Shown here: positions 1 through 21,804 of the stretch, piece after piece
Numbering within the stretch: position 1 is the stretch's first letter
Layout: each line of letters begins with the position of its first letter
Translations under genes and position numbers: made by a program
DNA from: a virus
Virus record (IMG/VR): IMGVR_UViG_3300013004_005298
Span: 1-30,380 of that record
DNA length: 30,380 nucleotides
Direction: 5' to 3' (one strand)
Notes under the pieces: generated by a model
What the model was told of the DNA's origin: nothing
The model's database searches: none
What the model saw: the letters and a program-made list of their open reading frames with translations, nothing else

Positions 1-16
1 ACCTGACCCCCTGATT

Positions 17-121
17 TCATCCAGCGGGGATTAGATCCGGGCCGTAGTTCCGCCGCTCGCTCATCCCCAGACTGGCCTGAAGATGGGCAACCGCTTCCCG
101 CATCGCGGCAGGCGTCACCAT
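17..121 (-). pseudogene. IS3 transposase OrfB remnant (34 codons)
   Basis: Translation from the ATG ending at 121 gives an N-terminus typical of IS3 OrfB (MVTPAAMREAVAHLQASLG, then MSERR). It then runs into NYGPDLIPAG and a stop at 17-19, right beside the left inverted repeat. The DDE integrase core, normally about 250 residues, is missing. The break after SERR marks an internal deletion joining the start of orfB to the left end of the element. Non-functional as a transposase. Confidence 0.85.
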
Positions 122-381
122 TTTTTTGACAGCAGATCCTTCAATGCCGCGTTGTCCAGCATCGTGTCGGCCAGCAGCCGCTTGAGCTTGGTGTTCTCCT
201 CCTCCAGCGCCCGAAGACGCTTGGCCTCCGACACCTCCAGGCCGCCAAACTTGGCCTTCCAGTTGTAGATCGTCGCCTCCGACACGCCGTGCCGACGGGC
301 CAGCTCGCCCGTCTTTGCGCCAGCCTCGGCCTCCTTCAAAAGCCCGATGATCTGCTCTTCCGTAAACCTCGTTCGCTTCAT
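115..381 (-). CDS. IS3-family transposase OrfA
   Basis: This 88-aa protein begins MKRTRFTEEQIIGLLKEAEAG, the usual opening of OrfA in the IS407-like branch of IS3. A helix-turn-helix follows at about residues 8-50 (LARRHGVSEATIYNWKAKFGG), then a leucine-zipper-like helix at about 55-80 (LRALEEENTKLKRLLADTML). OrfA binds the inverted repeats and, when fused to OrfB by -1 frameshifting, gives the active transposase. The length is normal for the family and the gene looks intact. Because OrfB is almost entirely deleted, the protein could at most bind IS ends or interfere with related elements. Identification is secure from sequence pattern. Confidence 0.93.
   Translation of the reverse strand: MKRTRFTEEQIIGLLKEAEAGAKTGELARRHGVSEATIYNWKAKFGGLEVSEAKRLRALEEENTKLKRLLADTMLDNAALKDLLSKKW
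121..127 (-). other. Programmed -1 frameshift site of the IS (A7)
   Basis: On the minus strand the end of orfA reads TCA AAA AAA TGG TGA. Seven consecutive A residues form an X XXY YYZ slippery heptamer in the orfA frame. A -1 slip places the ribosome on ATG GTG ACG, the orfB frame. This is the classical IS3 mechanism, here a relic because orfB is gone. Confidence 0.75.
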
Positions 382-446
382 CGTCCGTCCTCTCCAAGGG
401 CCGAACTCTAATCCATCGTGGAGGAAAATCAGGGGGTCAGGTCAGC

Positions 447-557
447 CTCAGAAAAGGGTGGGAGGAAACGCTCAAAAAAGCTGGCTACATTCTGAAGGGG
501 CATCGGATGGTTAGGCTAAAAGATGCTGAAACCCGAACCCAACCGAGCAGTCTCTGA
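447..557 (+). pseudogene. Possible C-terminal remnant of a gene cut by the IS
   Basis: Directly outside the right end of the IS, a plus-strand frame reads LRKGWEETLKKAGYILKGH, continues RMVRLKDAETRTQPSSL and stops at 555-557. The composition is protein-like (amphipathic, charged) rather than shadow-like. The frame has no start of its own here and would run into the IS end. It overlaps the 3' end of the convergent minus-strand gene by about 47 bp. I do not recognise the family. It may be the end of a gene interrupted by the insertion, or chance. Confidence 0.25.
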
Positions 558-984
558 TGATGTTTGCGTAACTCAACATGAATTCCTCACGAGTTTCAGG
601 CTTCAGAGCGCCAGTTTCGATAAGATAGTCGTATCCCCCACTTGCATATTGATTAAGAAGCTTAACACCATTGTCCGTTAAGCCAGTCTCGCCGGGCGCA
701 ACAATTCGACTAATAACTTCCCTAACTGCAGATTTTTCTGTCAAATCGATACGAGCTTTTTGTAACTCAGCAATTATAACAAGTCCTATAATAAGATTTT
801 TATAGGGCTTAAAATCGGAAATGAAATAATCCACAACATCCTTGCTCGCTTCCCCCGCAGGTTCGTTTCGCCTCCGTGCCATGAGGCCAACAAGGGCGCA
901 ATAATAGTAAATATCGAATTTTGGCCCCTTATCGACTTTTTTGAACCACTTCTCAGCATCCGAGCGCAAACGAAAGTAGGCCAT
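511..984 (-). CDS. Small protein, last gene of the defence-like operon
   Basis: A 157-aa protein starting MAYFRLRSDAEKWFKKVDKG. An in-frame GTG six bases upstream (to 990) overlaps the ATPase stop as GTGA and could also serve as start. I prefer the ATG at 984 because a GAGG sits about 10 bases before it. The sequence looks mostly helical, with an aromatic-rich segment (FDIYYYCALVGLMARRR, about residues 22-38), a hydrophobic helix (LIIGLVIIAEL) and a C-terminal part around GLTDNGVKLLNQYASGGYDYL. I do not recognise a family. Small partners of DndD-type ATPases, such as DndE, are known, but I see no convincing DndE motif. Its position directly after the ATPase gene suggests a subunit of the same complex. 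It carries no obvious catalytic motif. Confidence 0.8.
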   Translation of the reverse strand: MAYFRLRSDAEKWFKKVDKGPKFDIYYYCALVGLMARRRNEPAGEASKDVVDYFISDFKPYKNLIIGLVIIAELQKARIDLTEKSAVREVISRIVAPGETGLTDNGVKLLNQYASGGYDYLIETGALKPETREEFMLSYANIIRDCSVGFGFQHLLA

Positions 985-986
985 GA

Positions 987-2984
987 TCACTCGCCCTCGT
1001 AGTTGAAGTCGTGGAAATATTTCTGGCCGCTCACCACGACTGAGTTATCAGTTTGCACAACCCCCTCGCCTGGTAGGTTTTTGAGCAGGGCACTTGTCCC
1101 TTCAGTTTTCCGGAAGAGGGTCAGATACTTAATCTGCTTTCCGGCCTCTTCTAAAGCAGTTACAAAACCAGGCCGCTCGGTATCCAAGGTGAAGGCAACG
1201 AATTGAGCGCACAATGAAGGAATAAGCCTACCAATCTTGGCACGAGGCTCAGTGCTAAGCTTACCCGCGGGGCTATCTACAACAAGGGGAAAATCATGGT
1301 TCCCTCGGTTCAGAATGCTCATCAGAAAGACATAGCCTACAGATAGAGTCTGCCCCTCACTCGCACGCTTTTGGTTTGCTAGGGTCAGAGAGCTGTCAAT
1401 GCTCTCAATTTGCAAGACATCATTGACCAGGACATCTTTCAACCGCTGATTACAGACATCTAGCAACTCAGATTTGATGTTCATCTGAGCCTTATCATTC
1501 GCACTTCGGAGAATTTGCTGAAGGAGATTTGTCCGGTCTTTAAGATCGACAGTTTCGGTTATTTCTGAAATCCGTTGCTCGACCTCTTTCAGCTTTCGCG
1601 TGAGAAGTGGTATCGACAAAGATTTTAAAACCTCATTGTCGTCCTTCCTCGAAGACAATCGGTCGTCTTCCGGATCTTTGTCATTGAGTGCAATTAAGCC
1701 GATAAATTCAGATTCGCGTTGCTTGGCATTCGCCAGCTGCTTCTTCCATTCTTCCAGCTTGTCGTCGCCCGCTTTGATTAACTGATTTTCTAGAGAAGCA
1801 ATCTGTTGGCTCGCTTTCTTCAGGCGAATGCGAGACTGCTCCAGATCCTGACTGATACCTTTTTGCGCTTCATAAGGATCAATGTCGCTGCTATTTGAAA
1901 TATAGCGCTCAATGTCAGATTTGATCTCGTTGATAACGCCAATTTGCTTTTCGCCCAAAAATTGCTTCGAGCGGAGACGGATCTGCGCGATGGATTCTTC
2001 ATCCATTTGACGACCGCAAATGCACTCCTTTTCCTGCAAAATTTCCTCAAAAAATTGAGCAGACGTATTTTCAGGGAGCCTAAGTCTATCTAGATTTTCC
2101 TTCAAATAATTGAGGGATTTGCCGACAATCGGATGCAACGCATTGGGATTTCTCAACGCCTGGGCCAGCATTGATGAAAATTTTTCGACATCAGCTTCTG
2201 CTTGCACCTTGTCGTTATACGCTTCCGTATGAAGGTCGCGCGTTGTCGTGTCATCGCTAATCCGGTCGCGAATACGCTGTTCGTTTTTTGCAATATCTGC
2301 CTGAACCGTCTCAAGCTCAGACACAGCCTTAGCTCGGTTCTTTTCTAAAACATCCTTGCGGTTAGAAATGGCCTTTTGAAGATCGGTATACTTCTTTAGC
2401 CCAGATCCAGTTGTGACTGTGGCCGTTTTTGTCTCTCTATCCCAAGCTGCTGCAGCCACCTGCTCGATTTCATCAAGTAGGTACAGCTGACACAGAGCAT
2501 CAATGGCGAACTCAGCTTGCGCCTGTTCTGGATCAAGCAGACCTTTTGCTAATTCACCGTCGAAAATGAAAAGATCCAAGAAGCGTTTATCTAAGAATCT
2601 TCTCACCTCCATGGGAGGGCCCCAATGCATAATCATACCGCCAGTATCTGGCGATGTGGTCCTGTATCTTACACTACCATCGTCATAATCTAGCTCTATT
2701 TCAATGGTTAAGGGGCGCCCATCAATGACCAATTTTGCTGCAAAGACACCAGAGGGACGCGGATCATTGTGCCGTCTAAACTCACGAACTTCATCAGCTG
2801 ACCAGCTCGAAGCACGCCCATGTAGGCATGCCTTCAAGAGCTTAGTGGTAGTCGTTTTCCCGGTACCAGTTGATGCCTGGATCAGGGATATTGGAGAGAC
2901 ACCGCCAGACTGACTACGTAAGTCAATATCAACGTCGGGACAGCGGAGGCCCTCACTCCGCCAGCCTGCAAGCTCAATCTTCAT
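987..2984 (-). CDS. DndD-like SMC/Rad50-type ATPase
   Basis: A 665-aa protein with split ABC-ATPase halves separated by a long coiled coil. Walker A is ASTGTGKTTTT (about residues 37-47). FIFDGELAKGLL (about 139-150) is the FDGE-type motif common in DndD and related RecN/SbcC-like ATPases. Coiled-coil sequence fills roughly 195-505, with a CICG knuckle at 321-324, where Rad50-type hooks often sit. The ABC signature TLSVGY lies at about 546-551 and the Walker B strand PLVVDSPAG at about 566-574, with Ser where many ABC ATPases have the catalytic Glu. DndD takes part in DNA phosphorothioation, but no dndA, dndB or dndC is present, so a sulfur role is not supported. It is likely a DNA-sensing or DNA-remodelling motor. 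It overlaps the 67-aa gene by 11 nt at its start and the last operon gene at its stop. Confidence 0.85.
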   Translation of the reverse strand: MKIELAGWRSEGLRCPDVDIDLRSQSGGVSPISLIQASTGTGKTTTTKLLKACLHGRASSWSADEVREFRRHNDPRPSGVFAAKLVIDGRPLTIEIELDYDDGSVRYRTTSPDTGGMIMHWGPPMEVRRFLDKRFLDLFIFDGELAKGLLDPEQAQAEFAIDALCQLYLLDEIEQVAAAAWDRETKTATVTTGSGLKKYTDLQKAISNRKDVLEKNRAKAVSELETVQADIAKNEQRIRDRISDDTTTRDLHTEAYNDKVQAEADVEKFSSMLAQALRNPNALHPIVGKSLNYLKENLDRLRLPENTSAQFFEEILQEKECICGRQMDEESIAQIRLRSKQFLGEKQIGVINEIKSDIERYISNSSDIDPYEAQKGISQDLEQSRIRLKKASQQIASLENQLIKAGDDKLEEWKKQLANAKQRESEFIGLIALNDKDPEDDRLSSRKDDNEVLKSLSIPLLTRKLKEVEQRISEITETVDLKDRTNLLQQILRSANDKAQMNIKSELLDVCNQRLKDVLVNDVLQIESIDSSLTLANQKRASEGQTLSVGYVFLMSILNRGNHDFPLVVDSPAGKLSTEPRAKIGRLIPSLCAQFVAFTLDTERPGFVTALEEAGKQIKYLTLFRKTEGTSALLKNLPGEGVVQTDNSVVVSGQKYFHDFNYEGE

Positions 2985-3177
2985 TTGATCGCCCCTTTAC
3001 GATGAGCGTGCTCAAAACCAGCCTCAAGGATTGCTCATTATCATCGACGGTCAATTCGCCGCCGCTTAGCTCTGTTAGCCAGCCAATGAGACGTCTAGCT
3101 GTTGCATCTGGCTGACCAGCCTCCTTTACAGCCTCGAATACCGCCGCTTCAAGCGCTGGGTCAATTTGGGCGCTCAC
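2974..3177 (-). CDS. 67-aa operon protein of unknown function
   Basis: Begins at a GTG that overlaps the helicase stop (GTGA) and ends 11 nt inside the ATPase gene, so translation is probably coupled at both ends. The protein is short, acidic and apparently all-helical (LEAAVFEAVKEAG, then ARRLIGWLTELSGGEL). It has no cysteine cluster, membrane segment or recognisable enzymatic motif. Its place between helicase and ATPase suggests an adaptor between the two machines. I do not recognise the family. That both overlaps preserve the frame argues that it is a real gene. Confidence 0.75.
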   Translation of the reverse strand: MSAQIDPALEAAVFEAVKEAGQPDATARRLIGWLTELSGGELTVDDNEQSLRLVLSTLIVKGRSNED

Positions 3178-5171
3178 ACTTCATCCCCTCTGCGAATCGT
3201 CGATAAGTTGGTCAACCAGGCGCACCTTTCCTGATCGGCGTCGGGAACACCACCCCCGTCCTTTGTGGGACGTACAAAATCCAGCACTCTTGCGCGCTTC
3301 TCGGGCCGTGATGGATCGAGCCTTAAACACCTTCCTATCCTCTGAATTGTCTCCAGCTTTGCGCTGGCTGACGCAAATAGCACGACATTTTCAAGAGCCT
3401 GAATGTCTATCCCTTGCGAAATCCTGTGACAGGTTACCAGACAGTCGAACTCTCCTCTTGCAAACCGCAAAAGATCAGCCCGGTCGTCATCCGCATAGTA
3501 AGTACGGTATCTATTTGTATATCGGTCAATTATTTCGAGAACCCGCCTCCCATATTCAATCGTTTCGACAAAAATTATGCAGTTCTTTAGAACATCTGGG
3601 TTAGATTGCAGATATTTATGAAATACATCCGGCTTAGCTTCAGCCGTTTTGTAAACCTTAGAATATTCAATCCAAACTTCTTCCTTGGACATCGGATTTC
3701 CGGCATGCTGTCGCGCTGCCTTTTTCCTTTGAACATCCCGCAATCTATCCCGATCATTTTGGGTTAGCTCGTAGCCAAGAGGAATATAGTCAAATTCACA
3801 AAGAACGCCCCGCGAGATAGCGCGCTCAAGTGGAAATTCAAAAATAGTGGGGCCTAGTTCGGACGCGATAAATGCATTTCCGCCATCATCGTACGCCCGC
3901 TCCGGAGTTGCACTCAGTCCTAATTTCCATCCAAACCTAGAGTGTCCTCCCTTCAAAGAATCTACTAGGGCCGGCTGACCAAGGCCGTGCACTTCATCAT
4001 GTATAATAAGCATTCTATCTCGAACGTCTGGCAAAATCTGCTTCAAAGCTTTACCAAGTTGTGTTCTTGAAATTACCAAAACCGAAGGATGGACTGTGCG
4101 AGCATAATCGGCCATTTCATGATGCCGCCCAAAATGCCTATAAATTATCCATTCGCGCCGCGATGAATCTAGAGCCCATTCGCCCAGCTCAATGCTCCAT
4201 TGTTCGAGAAGATCAGTGCCATCTGTTGTGACTATAGCCCGATCAATCTTCCCCGAATTTATAAGATTATCGAGTATCTTAATTGATGTCCGCGTCTTAC
4301 CGGTCCCAGTCGCCATTTCCAGAATGCCAGCCCGCTGCTTAAGGAATGCATCCACGGCCTCCTCTTGGTGCCTCCATCGCGGGTCGGTTACGACAGCCTC
4401 CCGAACTACTGGTTCTTGCATTTCTGGCCTCACAGACGGCGCGCGTGCGCGGAGTTTTTTTAGGACGATATCTGATGGCGCGAGGACATTTAGTCCTTGA
4501 GCCTTGTTGCCCCAGGCTTCATCAAACTGAGCTGCTTTGTCGTCAACGCGCCCCGCATCACCGGGCACCCAATCGCGATATACATCTATAGTTTCATAGT
4601 TTTGTGCATGCCCCCGGTATGTCTCATTGGCTGAACCAATAAATGCGACACGCTCGCCGGAGGGGAAATCGAAAACACCATACTTTGCATGAAATAGATC
4701 AGCGCCTTGCACATGGGATGGAAAAGCAAATTTAATCTCCAGCCTTTCATTTGCCAGTAACCAAGCAAATATCTCAGCACGGACTTTCAAGTCAGACGTA
4801 TTTTCGGCATATTGTGAAATCTTATCTAAAATATTGTCGCATATTTGTTGACGGTATTCTTGCCTATTTTCCTGCCCACCCAACTCTTGGAGGGTTTTTA
4901 CATCTGAAACCGACAGCTCAGGCGAAGCAATTAACTGAATTTTTAATCCATCATCCGCCACCAAATGTGGCAAAGCACTAACCCAAGTTACAAGAGCGGA
5001 GCTGGAAAAATATCCAGCCGCTCTCCTATAACGAACCGCCTCCTTCAGGCAGGGCGCAAAAAACTCTACGCCGAGAGTGCTGGAACCTGAGCGATAGTGG
5101 CCAAGCAATTCTAAAATCCGCTGGCTTAATTGGGTTTGTGTGGCAGGCGATGACATGCTGGGACCGCTCAC
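3174..5171 (-). CDS. PLD-nuclease / superfamily 2 helicase fusion
   Basis: A 665-aa protein. The N-terminal part (about residues 30-220) is a phospholipase-D-like domain: the HxK core is in LFHAKYGVF (H161, K163) and the Asn-containing strand is FIGSANET (about 178-184). One HKD-type half usually acts as a dimer. The C-terminal part is a DEAD/DEAH-family motor: WRHQEEAV (about 266-273), Walker A MATGTGKT (286-293), DEVH box (392-395), SATP (420-423), SQGIDI (about 585-590) and QRIGRCLR (610-617). Related fusions occur as the restriction component in dnd-associated and other defence loci. The start is GTG at 5171; an ATG five codons in is an alternative. It lies 7 nt after the upstream gene and overlaps the next by 4. 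The likely role is tracking along and cutting foreign nucleic acid. Confidence 0.88.
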   Translation of the reverse strand: MSGPSMSSPATQTQLSQRILELLGHYRSGSSTLGVEFFAPCLKEAVRYRRAAGYFSSSALVTWVSALPHLVADDGLKIQLIASPELSVSDVKTLQELGGQENRQEYRQQICDNILDKISQYAENTSDLKVRAEIFAWLLANERLEIKFAFPSHVQGADLFHAKYGVFDFPSGERVAFIGSANETYRGHAQNYETIDVYRDWVPGDAGRVDDKAAQFDEAWGNKAQGLNVLAPSDIVLKKLRARAPSVRPEMQEPVVREAVVTDPRWRHQEEAVDAFLKQRAGILEMATGTGKTRTSIKILDNLINSGKIDRAIVTTDGTDLLEQWSIELGEWALDSSRREWIIYRHFGRHHEMADYARTVHPSVLVISRTQLGKALKQILPDVRDRMLIIHDEVHGLGQPALVDSLKGGHSRFGWKLGLSATPERAYDDGGNAFIASELGPTIFEFPLERAISRGVLCEFDYIPLGYELTQNDRDRLRDVQRKKAARQHAGNPMSKEEVWIEYSKVYKTAEAKPDVFHKYLQSNPDVLKNCIIFVETIEYGRRVLEIIDRYTNRYRTYYADDDRADLLRFARGEFDCLVTCHRISQGIDIQALENVVLFASASAKLETIQRIGRCLRLDPSRPEKRARVLDFVRPTKDGGGVPDADQERCAWLTNLSTIRRGDEV

Positions 5172-5178
5172 TTCCTGT

Positions 5179-8100
5179 TCATGGATCTAAGTGGTCTGAC
5201 GTGGCAAGATCGTCCATAATTTGATCCAGCATCTTTGCTTCGGTCAGCTGTCGAAACTCGAGAAGCAATTTGTCCAAATCGCTTAGATCTTCCTCGATGC
5301 TCAAAGCAGGATTAACCACTTCAGCCCCGTCAATCATCGACAACAGCAGGCGTTCATTCATCCAGCCGCCCATCGTTGCCCCACGCTCTCGCGCCTCCTG
5401 CATCAGTTGACGGCCCAAGGGGCTTTGCCAATTCAATTCCCCAAAATTGTGCAGTTCATCCTCAAGCTGGCTGACAATTTCGTTCAGGCGTGGCCCACGC
5501 ATTTGCAGCATCTGCCAATTGCTCGACGGATCAAATTGCAGTGCGCCAAGGGCGTTCATCATCGCAACCATCCCAGCCGAAATGTGGGCATCGGCTGTTC
5601 TGTTGAGTATGCGGTTCCCAACGATCCAATTAAATTTTCCAAAGGCTTTCGCCTCGAGACAGGCCGCAAGGAGACGACACATGTCAGGCAGTGCATAGCC
5701 CACCTCAGAGCGTGGCTCGAAATGCAGATGGAACTTACCGCCACGAACATCGATGATCTGTCTCCACTCAGCTTTTTCCTGATCGTGGACAGGCCATTCC
5801 TCAACTGAGGCGACTGTGAGAAGAGATTCGAACAACGCCGAATGAGCATGCCTTTTTGCCCATCTGCAGAGGGCATATTCTGCAGCTGGCGTCCAAAGCC
5901 TGAATGCACCCCACGGCTCTCCCGCTCGCCGGCCCAGCGCAAAAAGTCGTCCCTGCTCCTCATTAAGAAGATATGTTGGGGGCCTAAGCAATAGCTCGTC
6001 CTCACCGGGCATCGCCTGATGAAGGCCGTATACGCCCGGCAAGGCTCTTACAAAGACCTCGCGGTGCATCAGCATGGTTGGTCCAACGCTGGCGATCGAG
6101 CGATCTGATGGCAGTGTTTTTTGCGCCTCAGTGACAATATCCGTAAATTTCATCGGCCCTGTGCGCTCGAGGATCCCCTTGAGGAAGCCTGCCATGGTGA
6201 AGGTATCCTCCCCATCATCCCCTTCGAACGAAGACAGAGGTGCAAACTCAAACTCACTTGCGCCGCCCGAATTTTCCTTTGCGCCGAGACCAAACCACTC
6301 TGCATCATCCCCTTCCAGAAAAAGGTGAGGGTACCGAGACATAATCGCTGAAATATATCTAATTGAAATGGAGGGGCTGTTCACCTTTGCAGACAACCTC
6401 TGGACCAATTCAGCCACATCTATGGGGCGCGCATCTGATCCAAACATATTATGAAGTTCGACAACACGCCTCACGAGACGCGTTCCCCGGTCAGCCTCCA
6501 AGATGTACCCGCCGTAAAGCCGCTTACCAAGCTTCAACTCAACGACAACAGCCGTCAAATCGGCCTCAGAAAATAAACCTAGACGGGGGCAGGGCCTTGG
6601 CAGTGGCTTGCCCTTCAACTCATCCTCAATCGACGACGCAATGGCATCCAGCTCGGCAATGTCGGTCGCTTTGCTGCACCAGCCGCCTCCCCAGCGCCTT
6701 CCATAGTTGTCAAGCCACCCATCGAGGGTCACGCCTGCCACATCCGACAGAAAAATGAACTCTGCTGGCAGCCCCCTGACATTCTTAACATCATTTTGGC
6801 TGAGGTACCCCTTATCGCCACCTAGGCTGATCCAAGCCTTGTCGCCGAAGGCAAAAAGGCACTCCGCTATCGGCAGAAGTTTCGCGGTTACGGATAAAGC
6901 TCCGAGTGCCTTCTTCTCAATCTGGCGGATCCGCTCTCGGGTGACATTATGGTCCGCACTGATCTGCTCTAGAGTTTCAGCCTGCTGGCGACCGATCCCA
7001 TACCGTCTCTCGATCACCTCTCGAGAACGCGCTTTGAGCCCGGAAAGTAGCCGTTCTGCCATTTCATCGGGTGGAACAACTTCAGAGACAGCGAGATCTG
7101 AAATTTTGAAATTAGCAATGCCCTGCAGAGTGCCGATCAAATCCGCTGACAGCTCATCTGAAATGGGTGTCCGGATCAGAAGGAAATCTGCCGCTGCCTT
7201 GGATGCATCCTCTGCGACATATGCCGTTTGAAGGAACCTCACGATAAGATCTGAGCAGATCTTGGTGAGTTTCTCGAGGCTGGTACGACCAAGGTTTTTT
7301 TGCCGGGTCATTTCCCTGCGAATTTGAGGCCAGTCCAGGAACAGTTCACCGAGCGGGCGCCCCCCAAACTCTGATGCCTGAATTCCATTTGCCACTCGAG
7401 CGGGAGTACCGACAAACCCGCAAATTTGCTCAAGAGTGATGTCACTGAAAAGTTTGGCTAGGGCCTTCAAGAGAAGACCGCTCAGGCTGGCTGGATAAGG
7501 CTCTGAACTCTCGCCTGCCTTCACCTTCAGCGATTGCGCCGGGAACACTCGGGCCAAAATATCTTGAAGCTCGTGGATCGAAGTTCGGCCCATCCCCGAT
7601 ATTTTGCGACATTCAAGTTCTAGTTTGGCAAGATCGGATATTGCAGCGGCTACGGTCATCCCGGCAAGGTGGGAGCGTGAAATGCAATTCGTCAGCCGCA
7701 CGGAGGCGTCGGAGGACATGACGAACTCACTAAGCGTCGTAGTCTCCGGCGGGGTCAGCGGAAGCTCTCCGGAGACGAAACGCGTCTCTATACCACCTGA
7801 AAAATCAGCCCCTTCATTCGCCCCTTTTTCAGCAAATGCGTCAACGAGCCTAAGGAGCTCAGCGAGGGTTGTTCGTCCGAAATTGGGAACCTTGATGCAC
7901 GCATTCTCAAACTCGAGCCGGTTTTCAAGCGCCCACCGCAGGGTTGTAGAACGAAAATATTTATCGTCAGAGCAGTTGCTTAAGCGAGTACCCACAGTGC
8001 TCGCCTTGATCAACATTTCAATGGATTGATCATAAATCCCGATCGCCAACTCACCTTCACCGAGCTCTTCTAAAGGAGCAAGGTCCGACGCCGTCAAACT

Positions 8101-8580
8101 GGGCGCACTAGATGCACTGCCTTCAGCTACGTCCACAGGATATGAAATAGGTTCGATTTCAGCGCCAAAGACCGTATCTACAAAATGAATCGATTGAGTA
8201 GGCTCAAGCTCTTGTTTTGGGATCCCAAGGATTTCAGTTGAATCCAGAGTTGCCGCCAGCTCCGGCTCGTCAACTAATGGGCTTCCCTCCGTCTCCATCT
8301 CACCAAAGGCACTGGAGGAACTGGGAGCGAGGGTATTGACGCTATCAACTTGTTGATTGCGGAAGGCTCCCACCGCTCTTTTCACAAAATCCAGGAGTGT
8401 TCTTGACCTCATTGTTTTCCTTCGACCCAACTCTCTGATTACTTCTTGAACAAACTGCGGATTTTTATCGCTCTTGTGAAAAGCATCCTCTATTTCGTCA
8501 GCCTTCATACTGAATAGCGTTCTAAGTTCTTTGTCTGAAGGCATAAATTCCGCCAATCCCGTTATGGAAGAGCCGGCCAT
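5179..8580 (-). CDS. Large alpha-CTD-like / sigma-70 region 4 / winged-helix mosaic protein
   Basis: A 1133-aa protein built from transcription-type DNA-binding modules. Three helix-hairpin-helix repeats resembling the RNA polymerase alpha C-terminal domain end at NFGRTTLAELLRL (about 233-245), GMGRTSIHELQDIL (329-342) and NLGRTSLEKLTKI (429-441). A sigma-70 region 4 follows at about 505-562, with the almost canonical helix-turn-helix TLEQISADHNVTRERIRQIE. Two later segments, about 715-765 and 793-855, look like HARE-HTH/RNAP-delta winged helices. The C-terminal 270 residues are unassigned. I see no nuclease or ATPase motif. It starts 19 nt inside the WYL gene and ends 7 nt before the helicase gene. 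It may target the system to DNA, promoters or RNA polymerase; this is inference. Domain calls are firm for region 4 and good for the alpha-CTD-like repeats; the winged helices are tentative. Confidence 0.88.
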   Translation of the reverse strand: MAGSSITGLAEFMPSDKELRTLFSMKADEIEDAFHKSDKNPQFVQEVIRELGRRKTMRSRTLLDFVKRAVGAFRNQQVDSVNTLAPSSSSAFGEMETEGSPLVDEPELAATLDSTEILGIPKQELEPTQSIHFVDTVFGAEIEPISYPVDVAEGSASSAPSLTASDLAPLEELGEGELAIGIYDQSIEMLIKASTVGTRLSNCSDDKYFRSTTLRWALENRLEFENACIKVPNFGRTTLAELLRLVDAFAEKGANEGADFSGGIETRFVSGELPLTPPETTTLSEFVMSSDASVRLTNCISRSHLAGMTVAAAISDLAKLELECRKISGMGRTSIHELQDILARVFPAQSLKVKAGESSEPYPASLSGLLLKALAKLFSDITLEQICGFVGTPARVANGIQASEFGGRPLGELFLDWPQIRREMTRQKNLGRTSLEKLTKICSDLIVRFLQTAYVAEDASKAAADFLLIRTPISDELSADLIGTLQGIANFKISDLAVSEVVPPDEMAERLLSGLKARSREVIERRYGIGRQQAETLEQISADHNVTRERIRQIEKKALGALSVTAKLLPIAECLFAFGDKAWISLGGDKGYLSQNDVKNVRGLPAEFIFLSDVAGVTLDGWLDNYGRRWGGGWCSKATDIAELDAIASSIEDELKGKPLPRPCPRLGLFSEADLTAVVVELKLGKRLYGGYILEADRGTRLVRRVVELHNMFGSDARPIDVAELVQRLSAKVNSPSISIRYISAIMSRYPHLFLEGDDAEWFGLGAKENSGGASEFEFAPLSSFEGDDGEDTFTMAGFLKGILERTGPMKFTDIVTEAQKTLPSDRSIASVGPTMLMHREVFVRALPGVYGLHQAMPGEDELLLRPPTYLLNEEQGRLFALGRRAGEPWGAFRLWTPAAEYALCRWAKRHAHSALFESLLTVASVEEWPVHDQEKAEWRQIIDVRGGKFHLHFEPRSEVGYALPDMCRLLAACLEAKAFGKFNWIVGNRILNRTADAHISAGMVAMMNALGALQFDPSSNWQMLQMRGPRLNEIVSQLEDELHNFGELNWQSPLGRQLMQEARERGATMGGWMNERLLLSMIDGAEVVNPALSIEEDLSDLDKLLLEFRQLTEAKMLDQIMDDLATSDHLDP

Positions 8581-9542
8581 GAGAATGGAACTGTAGGCAT
8601 CATTTCCTGCAATTTTTGTGGTGATAAAACCTCAACTTCATCTCCCCATTTGACCAGATGCCAAGCCATTTCCAAAAGCCCCCCCGCCTTGAAATGCACA
8701 ATCAGCCTTCCTGCTTCATCTTCTTCAGCATCTTGACTCGGATGAAACACGAATTGCTTGGCCATTGGTGCGGCCACTTTAGAGAATCTCCAAACAACAT
8801 CGTATGGTTCTTCCTCAAAGATGCCGAATGAATTGGAAATAAATTCCCTTAAGGTGAAATTCTTATCCCGCTCAAAACTTTCGTCCTCCAGCTTCAAATT
8901 CGCTATGGCGGGGAGACTGTAAAAACGAACATCACTGCCCCCATTTGCGACACCAACGAGGTAGTGGCGATGCCCGTAGAGGAACCCGAGGGGCGATACA
9001 GTGCGTTCAAGAGCCTTGCCTCCCGCCCTTGAAGCATACCGAAACGTCACCTTCCTACATGACTTGATGGCAGTGCGCAGTGTCTCAATTGTTTGCGGAG
9101 AAATGAATGGCTTCGGCCCAGGCCGCAATGCGATCCCTTCAGCTTCGGTCAACGCCTCGAGATCCGGTTCGATGTGGGGCAAACTTCCTGTGGAGAGGGA
9201 ATTACGAATTTTGGCACCAAGCATGCGCAGGCCTTCGGCATGCGTTTGAAGGTTCGCTTTTCGCATCGCCTCCGCCGCCACCTCGAGATTGGCCAAATCA
9301 TCCGAGGTCACATCGACGAAAGTCTGGGCCGCGGTCCTGGGCAAAGCCCAACGCTTCGCTCGCTCACCCGTTTCAATTTTGCTGCCTTGGGGGAAGGCCC
9401 TCAAGACCGCGTCACGCATTCGGATGGCCGTTCGCCGGCTAACCTCGAACTTCTCCTCGATTTCAGCGATAGAAACACCGCCCTTCGCGGCTTGCATCTC
9501 AAGTGCAAGCTGTATCAGTCGTTCTGCCCTCCCGTAACGCAT
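8562..9542 (-). CDS. WYL-domain transcriptional regulator
   Basis: A 326-aa protein of standard length for the family. An N-terminal helix-turn-helix (SIAEIEEKFEVSRRTAIRMR, about residues 24-43) is followed by a WYL ligand-sensing domain (about 150-225), whose core reads RTVSPLGFLYGHRHYLVGV, with His in place of the family Trp. The C-terminal WCX extension (about 245-320) contains FVFHPSQ and WGDEVEVLSP. WYL regulators commonly head and repress defence operons and are thought to respond to nucleic-acid or nucleotide ligands. It is the first gene, and its stop lies inside the start of the next gene. The ATG at 9542 is the natural start, but its ribosome site is weak (GGGCGGGG). Autoregulation through the inverted repeat upstream is likely but unproven. 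Confidence 0.92.
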   Translation of the reverse strand: MRYGRAERLIQLALEMQAAKGGVSIAEIEEKFEVSRRTAIRMRDAVLRAFPQGSKIETGERAKRWALPRTAAQTFVDVTSDDLANLEVAAEAMRKANLQTHAEGLRMLGAKIRNSLSTGSLPHIEPDLEALTEAEGIALRPGPKPFISPQTIETLRTAIKSCRKVTFRYASRAGGKALERTVSPLGFLYGHRHYLVGVANGGSDVRFYSLPAIANLKLEDESFERDKNFTLREFISNSFGIFEEEPYDVVWRFSKVAAPMAKQFVFHPSQDAEEDEAGRLIVHFKAGGLLEMAWHLVKWGDEVEVLSPQKLQEMMPTVPFSWPALP

Positions 9543-9894
9543 AGGCCCCGCCCTTCTCGATCACCCTTATATCAGGCAATCGAAATTGGACGACTGATAA
9601 ATCCATGCACAAATGTCCTCATTTGGCATAGATAAGGTGGACTGAACCTCTTCATATGCGGCGCAGGCCTAGCGAACCGATCGACCCACAATCTATGCCA
9701 TTTGAGGACACTCATACCTCTGGCAGCCGTTACGGCTAGAGCAATTCCTCTCCATCCCAAGCCCACCATTTCTGGAGGAAAGATTGATCAATGCCGAATG
9801 CGTCAACCGATTCTCGATTTAAACTCTTGTTGTTACAGCGAGATTAATCTTCGTGACCACCAGTGAAGCCCTGTTTCCCCAACTATTCGCTTGA
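9543..9894. other. Intergenic region between defence-like operon and phage tail genes
   Basis: About 350 bases with no convincing gene; the short minus-strand frame at 9572-9769 has no protein-like character. It contains the inverted repeat at 9614-9710, a possible -10 (TATAAG on the minus strand near 9568) before the WYL gene without a clear -35, and a weak 5-bp hairpin AGCCG/CGGCT at 9725-9737. No strong terminator for the phage operon and no tRNA-like attachment site are seen. Confidence 0.6.
9614..9710. promoter_or_regulatory. Imperfect inverted repeat, candidate WYL operator
   Basis: Arm 1 at 9614-9633 reads TGTCCTCATTTGGCATAGAT. Arm 2 at 9691-9710 reads ATCTATGCCATTTGAGGACA, the reverse complement with 2 mismatches in 20. 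The arms are separated by 57 bases, and their centres are about 77 bp apart. Arm 1 ends about 72 bp upstream of the WYL start codon. The spacing is too long for a terminator, but it suits paired operator sites bound by a multimeric regulator with looping, or a recombination site. Binding by the WYL protein is inference. Confidence 0.55.
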
Positions 9895-11240: not shown

Positions 11241-12781
11241 CAGAACGAGCCCCCGTCTACGGTGATGCCGTCAATCGAGCCGCCGGTGATCGCTACATTG
11301 TTGGCCGCCTGCGTCGACATGGTGCCGAGGCCGGAAATATCCGTGTTGGGGATCGTGGCAGAAGCCGTGAACGCAGCGGTACCGTTGCCCTTCAGGTAAC
11401 CGGTCAGCGTGGCTGCGCCAGAGCCGCCTTTGGCCACGCCAAGCGTGCCACCGATATTGCCCAGCGTCAGGTTGGCTTCGTTGACGTCGATAGTCGGGTT
11501 ACCAGCCACGCCGTCACCATTGGTGACCGCAATCTTGGTCGAACCGGCGGTCAGCGTGCGGGCTGCCACCGTACCGGCTGCCGTGCGGGCAATGATCCCG
11601 TTTGCGGCAAGATTATGGAGCGCAAGCGCCTGGCCAGTCAGACCAACGGTGGTGGCGGCAACCGCGATCCCGGTGCCAGCGCCGACCTCCAGCGTGTTGC
11701 CGGTCTTGACCAGGCCGTTACCAGCAACAATCTGCCCGGCGCCGTTGAACTGCACAAAGCTGATCGCGGTGGTGCCCAGCGTGCCGCCTGCATCAACAGT
11801 GCACAAGAACCCTACGTCGGCGTTGACCGTGCCCTGTTCGGCGAACAGATAAGCTGCAACATGCTCATCCCAAATCGAGAGATCGAGCGCGCGCGCCCAG
11901 GTGCTGGCCGCAACGATGTAGACGCCGTTCGCGCTGGCAGTGGTCTGGTCTTTGACCAGCACACGGTCGCCGGCGACCAGCGCCACCCCGTCGATGGTCA
12001 TGGTGCCGGATAGCGCGGCAATGTTCGTGGTTGTGGCCGCCTTCACTGACGCCTTGGGATCGAGCCCTTGAACCGTCAGATCCACGTAGTTCTTGGTCGC
12101 AGCGTCCTGCGCCCCAGTCGGGTCAGCCAACCCGGTTATGCGCTGACTGTTAAGCCCCAGCGCAGCAGTGGGCGCGGCCAGTTGGTCGAGCCGGTTGGCG
12201 CGCACGCGGGCATCGGTGTAATAGAGGTTGGCGCCTTCAGAGACGTCGTTGGTCGAGAGCGTGATGGCACCAGTGCGCCCTGCAACCGAAGTTACCGGGA
12301 ACGTGATCGCGACGTTGCTGGCGGCCGTGACCCGGCCCTTGGCATCGACCGTGACCTGGCCGACCTGTGTCGCCGAACCATAGGAGCCAGCGGTGACGCC
12401 ACTATTCGCGAGCGTCGCTGCAATGGTCGCATTTGCGGTACCGTTGAACGAGGCGGTGCCGGTTACATCGCCAGAGAGACCCAGCGTACGAGACGTGGCC
12501 AACGCAGTCGCTGTGCCGGCATTGCCCGAGATCGAACCGGCAATCGTGCTCGAGAACGTCTTGACCCCAGCGATGGTCTGATCGCCGGACAGGCCAGCAA
12601 AAGCGCCCGGGCCGCCGATGGCGATGACCGAGGTCGCCGTACCGCCAGCCCCGCCGGTGCCCGTACCGTAGTAGAGGGTGTTGTCCTGCTCGTTGAATGC
12701 GAGCTCGGCATTGGCAAGCGATGCCGGAGCGCCGGCTGCGCCGCCTGCAGCGCGGCGTTTGATACGAAGCGTGTTGGCCAT
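11240..12781 (-). CDS. Long tail fibre / receptor-binding protein
   Basis: A 513-aa Gly/Ala/Thr-rich protein. It opens with the same kind of fibre N-terminus as its downstream neighbour ([19 protein letters not shown], then [17 protein letters not shown]). Next is a module with [19 protein letters not shown] and [11 protein letters not shown] (about 100-153). A central segment contains [37 protein letters not shown] and [15 protein letters not shown], all common in siphovirus and podovirus fibres. No S74 domain is present at its own C-terminus, which ends [14 protein letters not shown]; folding may depend on the neighbour. Its start overlaps the stop of the collagen-like gene by one nt. A receptor-binding role is inferred from family and position. 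Confidence 0.85.
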
Positions 12782-13041
12782 TAAAAATTACCTCCATCGA
12801 CCAGTCTGGCCGAATTCGTGTTGGTCCACCGGTTGACGGGGGATGAGAAAATCAGGACGTCGCCGCCCTCGGGCTGCGTGAGATCGACGTCAGACAGATC
12901 GTTGAGTGCGCTGAGTGGACCGGGTGGCCCCTGGGGACCCTGGGCGCCGATGGCGCCTGGGTTCCCGCGCGGACCAGCAATGCCCTGGGGCTCGATGACG
13001 ATGGTCTGCACCGTCTCCAGGATCTGGATCGTGCTCGTCAT
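12781..13041 (-). CDS. Collagen-like short phage tail protein
   Basis: An 86-aa protein. Residues about 20-43 form an uninterrupted Gly-X-Y run ([18 protein letters not shown], then GPPGP), that is eight collagen triplets. Short N- and C-terminal segments flank it; the tail reads [20 protein letters not shown]. Collagen-like stretches occur in phage fibre connectors, where they trimerise. It sits between an unrecognised tail protein (4-nt overlap) and the long fibre gene (1-nt overlap), which suits an adaptor between baseplate and fibre. Function is inferred. Confidence 0.75.
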
Positions 13042-13349
13042 TCGACATCGAACGTGAAGACCGGCAGGACCTCACGCTCCCCTTCACCGTTTTCGAGGCC
13101 GATAACCAACCAGACCCGGCCAGCCCCCGGTTTAAGATGGGCCGTCTGCTCGTCAGTCCACAGCACTTCGATTTCGCCGAAAGTTGGCGGCGAGCGAATG
13201 GTGATAGCCGGCACAGCGATGTTGGGGCTCTGATCGACAACAAGCGCCGAAAGCGCGGTCAGGTCTCGCCGATCACCTGCGGCGAGATCGGCATAGAGCG
13301 TGGCGCGCAGCCGTCTGGTGCCGCCACGGCGGATAGCTAGCCTGGTCAT
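13038..13349 (-). CDS. Small beta-rich tail-region protein, unknown
   Basis: A 103-aa protein beginning MTRLAIRRGGTRRLRATLYA. It is predominantly strand-forming, with a hydrophobic C-terminal region (VWLVIGLENGEGEREVLPVF). It may be an Ig-like baseplate or fibre-attachment domain, but I cannot name the family. It overlaps the collagen-like gene by 4 nt and heads the distal fibre cluster after the hairpin at 13374-13397. The role follows only from its neighbours. Confidence 0.65.
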   Translation of the reverse strand: MTRLAIRRGGTRRLRATLYADLAAGDRRDLTALSALVVDQSPNIAVPAITIRSPPTFGEIEVLWTDEQTAHLKPGAGRVWLVIGLENGEGEREVLPVFTFDVE

Positions 13350-13373
13350 GATTGCACCTGCCTCAGAAAGGGT

Positions 13374-13397
13374 TGGCGGAGGCCAAGACCTCCGCCA
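13374..13397. repeat. Perfect 9-bp hairpin after the small holin-like gene
   Basis: TGGCGGAGG (13374-13382) and CCTCCGCCA (13389-13397) pair across a 6-base loop, in the 65-nt gap between the 64-aa gene and the fibre cluster. On the minus strand it is followed by ACCCTTTC, a poor U-tract. It may be an attenuator or mRNA-processing/stability hairpin rather than a full terminator. Confidence 0.5.
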
Positions 13398-13414
13398 GTT
13401 GGGCTGAATTGGGA

Positions 13415-13609
13415 TCAGCCGATCCGAGTGGTCGCCGTCTTGCGGAACAGCACGCCGCCGATGCCGGTCAGCGCCAGAACCAGGGTCAGGACATCAGCTT
13501 GGCTGAGACCTTGCGGTAAAATGCCGATTGCTCCGGCCACGCCCCAGAGGCTGCCGATGACGCCGGTCCAGATGGCCTTCGAGGTCCACCACGGCTTCAA
13601 GTCTTCCAT
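13415..13609 (-). CDS. Small two-helix membrane protein, holin-like
   Basis: I start it at the ATG at 13609 (MEDLKPWWTSKAIWTGVIG, 64 aa), because GGAGA lies 7-8 bases upstream. The longer frame to 13690 would read through the terminator hairpin and a second inverted repeat. Two hydrophobic segments are visible, about residues 11-31 and 41-57 (VLTLVLALTGIGGVLF), and a short basic tail (RKTATTRIG) follows. Size, topology and position just after an endolysin gene suit a holin. It is separated from the endolysin by a rho-independent terminator, so it may have its own expression. Confidence 0.65.
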   Translation of the reverse strand: MEDLKPWWTSKAIWTGVIGSLWGVAGAIGILPQGLSQADVLTLVLALTGIGGVLFRKTATTRIG

Positions 13610-21618: not shown

Positions 21619-21703
21619 GCGGGCGTGGCGGAATTGGTAGACGCACCAGATTTAGGTTCTGGCGCCGAACAGCGTGGGGGTTCGAGTCCCTTCGCCCGCA
21701 CCA
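21619..21703 (+). tRNA. tRNA-Leu (anticodon UAG)
   Basis: Acceptor stem GCGGGCG pairs with CGCCCGC (21693-21699), and CCA is encoded at 21701-21703. The D-arm is GCGGAATTGGTAGACGC, the anticodon stem CCAGA/TCTGG with loop TTTAGGT (anticodon TAG), the variable arm is long as expected for leucine, and the T-loop is TTCGAGT. It lies on the plus strand, antisense to the surrounding tail operon, and should read CTA and other CTN codons. Confidence 0.93.
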
Positions 21704-21718
21704 TGCCGATGTCGCGGC

Positions 21719-21804
21719 GCGGATGTGGCGGAATGGTAGACGCCCGAGACTTAAAATCTTGTGAGGGTATCCTCGTGCGGGTTCGAGTCCCGCCATCCGC
21801 ACCA
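21719..21804 (+). tRNA. tRNA-Leu (anticodon UAA)
   Basis: Acceptor GCGGATG pairs with CATCCGC (21794-21800), and CCA is encoded at 21802-21804. The D-arm is GCGGAATGGTAGACGC, the anticodon stem CGAGA/TCTTG (one G-T pair) with loop CTTAAAA (anticodon TAA), the variable arm is long, and the T-arm is GCGGG/CCCGC with loop TTCGAGT. It starts 15 bases after the first tRNA and presumably shares its transcript. It should read TTA and TTG codons. Confidence 0.93.

Follow-up and report, generated by a model that had tools for sequence, protein, structure and literature searches.

What does a protein assembled from RNA polymerase (RNAP) parts do beside a nuclease/helicase in a viral genome? The question is raised by the first third of a 30,380-nt stretch of DNA (IMG/VR virus record IMGVR_UViG_3300013004_005298, positions 1 to 30,380; hereafter, the window), in which a preliminary description had reported a 1133-aa open reading frame at positions 5179-8580. 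The frame was confirmed at exactly these coordinates; it starts with ATG and lies on the minus strand, running from 8580 to 5179. In its product, SIG, three units resembling the C-terminal domain of the RNAP alpha subunit (alpha-CTD) are located upstream of a sigma-70 region 4 (Table 1).

Table 1 Features of SIG and of the neighbouring genes, in window coordinates
Feature	Position	Strand	Evidence
SIG, alpha-CTD/sigma region 4 composite protein, 1133 aa	5179..8580	-	
alpha-CTD-like unit 1, aa 188-252, TRLSNC ... NFGRTT	7825..8019	-	leave-out HMM, 22.6 bits
alpha-CTD-like unit 2, aa 283-348, SVRLTNC ... GMGRTS	7537..7734	-	leave-out HMM, 37.9 bits; Pfam RNA_pol_A_CTD, E=2.4e-5
alpha-CTD-like unit 3, aa 392-449, ARVANG ... 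NLGRTS	7234..7407	-	leave-out HMM, 21.9 bits
sigma-70 region 4, aa 511-562, all -35-contact residues	6895..7050	-	Pfam, E=1.1e-11; structure match
Predicted helix, aa 606-615, at the position of the RNAP beta-flap-tip helix	6736..6765	-	two models; inferred
Predicted winged-helix-like domain, aa 789-855	6016..6216	-	VIA-align Z 8.3-8.7 to winged helices; moderate model confidence
WYL/WCX transcriptional regulator, first operon gene, 19-nt overlap with SIG	8562..9542	-	Pfam WYL, E=1.1e-11; WCX, E=1.7e-11
PbeA, HKD (PLD) nuclease domain fused to SF2 helicase	3174..5171	-	PADLOC, E=1.2e-259; Pfam PLDc_2, ResIII
PbeB, 67 aa, GTG start overlapping the PbeA stop	2974..3177	-	alignment to Rhizobium protein
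PbeC, CxC-type ABC ATPase	987..2984	-	PADLOC, E=3e-21; ECICGR zinc-hook motif
PbeD	511..984	-	45% identity to same-position gene of other pbe operons
IS3-type transposase OrfA, ~88 aa, at contig end, adjoining the defence operon	115-381	-	

The matches to both kinds of module are far above chance. Region 4, already described as near-canonical and as containing the -35-contacting TRERIRQIE segment, is recognised by Pfam (PF04545), matches RpoD/SigA structures at E values of 1e-8 to 1e-6 and keeps the segment as VTRERIRQIE. Repetition of the alpha-CTD-like unit had likewise been anticipated. Pfam detects RNAP alpha-CTD in the middle unit only (aa 282-343), and an HMM trained on the units of relatives, with SIG itself excluded, finds all three at the scores given in Table 1, compared with 1.6 bits for the best of 100 shuffled sequences; the same HMM also recovers the E. 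coli RpoA CTD. Furthermore, a profile of 14 family units searched against the PDB matched RNAP alpha at E=1e-9, with alpha accounting for nearly all matches. Consistent with the preliminary description, region 4 is the only part of sigma that was recognised, neither region 2 nor a polymerase domain being found in Pfam or NCBIfam. Similarly, alpha is represented by CTD-like units, its N-terminal assembly domain not being found, and neither the N-terminal third nor the C-terminal half of SIG matched anything in the PDB by sequence. Classification of SIG as a sigma factor was rejected because region 2 is absent. The two HARE-HTH/delta-like winged helices proposed earlier fared less well: the HARE-HTH profile (PF05066) reached E=0.058 in one of 11 relatives and gave no match in SIG. 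What AlphaFold predicts is a winged-helix-like domain at approximately aa 789-855, and possibly another at approximately aa 700-764, the full-length model being weak in this part of the protein; the former, a probable winged helix, is the only assigned part of the C-terminal half, which is conserved across the family.

SIG is the second of six genes, all directed leftwards and either overlapping or separated by gaps of a few bases, in the order WYL regulator–SIG–PbeA–PbeB–PbeC–PbeD. The nuclease/helicase noted in the preliminary description turns out to be PbeA, the pbe operon to which it belongs is complete, and its HxKx4D and MATGTGKT motifs can be read in the sequence. PbeB aligns with a Rhizobium 'CxC ATPase DNA modification system associated small protein', and the ECICGR motif of PbeC is found in the middle of a coiled-coil region. 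PbeD is called a DndE cognate in the literature; its match to DndE by hhalign is not significant (E=0.09). The G+C content is ~50% across positions 1-9600 versus 62-64% in the adjoining phage genes, which encode terminase, portal, protease, major head protein, tape measure and tail fibres; the fall, from ~63% in positions 9600-30380, is sharp and lies just past the tail fibre genes. Because of this drop beside structural genes in an IMG/VR virus record, we conclude that the pbe operon is low-GC cargo that a tailed phage or prophage has picked up, represented here by an HK97-type contig. The structural region also contains two tRNA-Leu genes (tag and taa anticodons; 21619-21804), which lie on the plus strand, opposite to the structural genes.

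The positions through which RNAP alpha and sigma touch UP and -35 DNA are well defined, and SIG keeps them: R265, N268, N294, G296 and S299 of alpha-CTD and T583, R584, E585, R588 and Q589 of sigma (E. coli numbering). Among 27 alpha-CTD units from 15 family members, R265 and G296 are invariant (27/27 each), and N268, N294 and S299 are present in 19, 20 and 20 units, respectively (S or T in 26 units at the last position). Mean identity is 84% at the DNA-contact positions versus 15% in the rest of the unit, a comparison in which positions 294-299 are partly fixed by the unit-finding pattern and the independent evidence comes from 265 and 268. Neither the 261 face (contacting sigma) nor the 287 face (contacting activators) is conserved among these 27 units. 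Within the third unit, R395, G431 and S434 are invariant in 11 relatives. As for region 4, SIG residues T547, R548, E549, R550, R552 and Q553 correspond to RpoD T583, R584, E585, R586, R588 and Q589, and all are invariant in the 11-member alignment except R548, which is R or K. Judging from this pattern, the DNA-reading residues are the part of the promoter-recognition surface that selection appears to have retained, in agreement with the earlier view of SIG as a mimic of such surfaces. That the conserved face is the DNA face, and not those usually bound by phage factors, argues against SIG being a decoy that would be mistaken for RNAP by a transcription factor of phage or host origin (such as an anti-sigma or an alpha-modifying phage protein) and would then trigger PbeA-PbeC. 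We regard such a decoy as improbable, even though phage proteins that take over transcription attack the very surfaces displayed by SIG and the alpha/sigma part is common even to subfamilies with differing C-terminal halves.

The full-length AlphaFold model of SIG is weak overall (mean pLDDT 54.8), and that of aa 276-640, built with nine sequences, is good (81.9). Modelled region 4 superposes on crystal structures of region 4 (3n97_A, 53/53 residues, rmsd 1.5 Å, Z 9.5); the structure-search lists were filled by sigma region 4, and the alpha-CTD fold rests on sequence profiles rather than on an independent structural match. The best matches in both models are chimeras engineered to join sigma region 4 to the tip of the RNAP beta-flap, namely, 8d5v_B (97/97 residues, rmsd 2.1 Å, Z 11.2) and 6ido_A (86/86 residues, rmsd 1.9 Å, Z 10.3), which span SIG residues ~501-622, compared with only ~501-571 for ordinary region 4 structures. 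A predicted SIG helix (near aa 606-615) would thus take the flap-tip position, and the region 4 groove may be self-filled. These models bear on another function raised in the preliminary description, sequestration of RNAP: SIG would bind the host enzyme through beta-flap or alpha contacts and sequester or hijack it, stopping phage or cell transcription. In favour of this, region 4 of sigma ordinarily holds on to the beta-flap and is itself touched by alpha-CTD. However, with no region 2, no conservation of the alpha 261 and 287 determinants and a predicted internal helix in place of the flap tip, sequestration of RNAP by SIG appears very unlikely.

The search for this domain order in other genomes, also advised earlier, was productive and yielded homologues that are mostly adjacent to pbe genes. 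They are found on Rhizobium, Rhodobacterales and Acidiphilium plasmids, in Rhizobiales, Acetobacteraceae, Rhizomicrobium and Mesorhizobium genomes, and in two further Pseudomonadota genomes, and carry from one (L002, L019) to three alpha-CTD units. A profile of the alpha3+sigma4 core returned mostly RpoD, plus two new family members. The family is rare: the profile of the C-terminal part matched one of 385 sampled alphaproteobacterial genomes, which was the seed genome itself. No SIG homologues were found in viral contigs and a phage collection, and 80 viral loci retrieved with a PbeA profile contained a single clear pbeA+pbeC pair and no SIG. In seven relatives (L002, L003, L008, L009, L010, L012 and L024), a gene with a RelA/SpoT domain (Pfam E=1.4e-9; 7548-8633 in L002) lies directly upstream of the SIG homologue; this juxtaposition of an alarmone-type enzyme and a promoter-reading protein may be meaningful. 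In L169, a gene of the DndB family (ParB-CTPase-like; 12151-13425) is found upstream of the alpha-CTD/region 4 gene.

In 12 of the 13 loci with sufficient flanking sequence (L002, L003, L005, L006, L008-L012, L019, L169 and the window), pbe genes adjoin the SIG homologue. Most of the paired loci also contain dnd phosphorothioation genes (dndCDE(A)); L019 has a methyltransferase in place of the dnd modification genes, and dndC of the L169 genome is located ~25 kb away on the same contig. The exception is an orphan homologue on Acidiphilium plasmids (L004, 8575-11199), which is embedded amid toxin-antitoxin genes without pbe genes nearby. Six other pbe loci examined are devoid of a SIG gene. Because SIG adjoins pbe genes in all but one of the 13 loci, yet other pbe operons lack it, its genomic association marks it as an optional but conserved component, in all likelihood, of a variant of the Pbe/CxC-ATPase defence.

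The main rival to a targeting subunit is autoregulation, in which SIG would act as a transcription regulator of the defence island, sitting on pbe/dnd promoters through its UP/-35-like heads and repressing or tuning them together with the WYL protein. The recognised modules of SIG are all DNA-binding, an orphan copy exists, and the neighbours include the WYL gene here, the DndB-like gene in L169 and the RelA/SpoT-like gene in seven relatives. However, the sequences preceding the gene in relatives show no conspicuous conserved -35/UP-like site (in a simple consensus scan of the upstream regions of ten of them, no strong -35/-10 pair was found), and a protein of 750-1130 aa with a conserved C-terminal half of ~500 aa is large for a repressor. 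Moreover, the gene is not constant in position, being found before pbeA, after dndA or after pbeD, and such varying order is easier to reconcile with a component of the system than with something purely local. We consider regulation rather unlikely to be the function of SIG.

Our preferred reading, held tentatively, is that SIG is an optional conserved Pbe subunit that recognises promoter-like DNA, where it would load or license PbeA-PbeC; it builds on the domains and their kept DNA-contact residues, on the operon and on the repeated co-occurrence with pbeABCD. As to DNA preference, we infer that the alpha-CTD units would grip an A/T-rich minor groove (UP-like DNA) and that region 4 would read a -35-like (TTGACA-type) site in the major groove; within the window, TTGACA is scarce and scattered. 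By replacing the RNAP beta-flap tip, the internal helix would allow promoter-like DNA to be recognised without RNA polymerase, and the putative contact with Pbe would be made by the C-terminal half, which would link to, hold or license PbeA-PbeC at the site. Where the DNA does not carry the mark of the host (phosphorothioate, or a methyl group in one relative), the nuclease/helicase would begin to act or replication would be arrested, and the natural target would be phage DNA with strong early promoters. Recruitment of the nuclease/helicase to phage promoters, as envisaged in the preliminary description, is plausible given where the gene occurs in genomes and which residues are conserved. If host promoters were read too, self-protection would be needed; no DNA modification genes are visible within the window, where the contig ends at an IS3-type element. 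In one locus pair, SIG is 33.7% identical versus 57.9% for PbeA, 43.8% for PbeC and 45.1% for PbeD, and this faster divergence would fit a specificity subunit, but regulators show it too. Counting against a subunit role are the standard pbeABCD operons, which work or occur without SIG (PMC6459918), and the Acidiphilium orphan without pbe genes.

Because the DNA-touching residues are kept, the other polymerase machinery is absent and the setting is a defence operon, these observations suggest that an antiviral machine already known to target DNA has adopted promoter recognition as a means of selecting its site of action. Immunity guided by promoters, in which a modification-linked nuclease system would find its targets by their UP and -35 architecture, using alpha-CTD/region 4 heads and its own beta-flap substitute, is possible but somewhat doubtful. 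If true, a dedicated promoter-reading subunit would provide a testable answer as to where one Pbe/CxC branch acts and would represent an unusual reuse of the promoter-recognition parts of RNA polymerase outside transcription; phages depending on the host polymerase cannot easily give up conserved promoter features.

Comparison with known systems places the locus closest in gene content to PbeABCD, with PbeA, PbeB, PbeC and PbeD in canonical order here and SIG relatives beside dndCDE(A). PbeABCD is described as pbeA-D plus modification genes, later reinterpreted as a CxC ABC-ATPase system (PMC6459918; PMC10853773); it is described with four genes, whereas here a 3.4-kb alpha-CTD/region 4 gene and a WYL gene precede pbeA. 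PbeABCD was reported to stop viral replication with no visible cleavage (PMC6459918), whereas nuclease action has been argued instead for Pbe/CxC systems (PMC10853773). MzaA of the MZA system (NCBIfam NF041931) is also defence-associated and matches SIG in sigma-70 region 4 only (E=1.5e-15). Identification of SIG as MzaA was rejected: the match scores 57 bits versus a curated cut-off of 800, is confined to positions 645-702 of 726, and the partner genes are different. The complex of RNAP alpha-CTD and sigma-70 region 4 on UP/-35 DNA (PDB 3n97) shares the two DNA-reading folds and their contact residues with SIG, which by contrast combines up to three alpha-CTD units with region 4 in one chain and has no RNAP core-binding parts. 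A sigma-like HTH in a phosphorothioate-linked nuclease system is mentioned in the available excerpts of PMC10853773, there only inside some DndH proteins, as an insert within DndH of DndFGH, whereas SIG is a protein in its own right, carries alpha-CTD units and is encoded in a pbe operon. A literature text search found no published description of a SIG subunit, although an earlier mention of the architecture is possible. In RefSeq, homologues of SIG are named 'sigma factor-like helix-turn-helix DNA-binding protein'.
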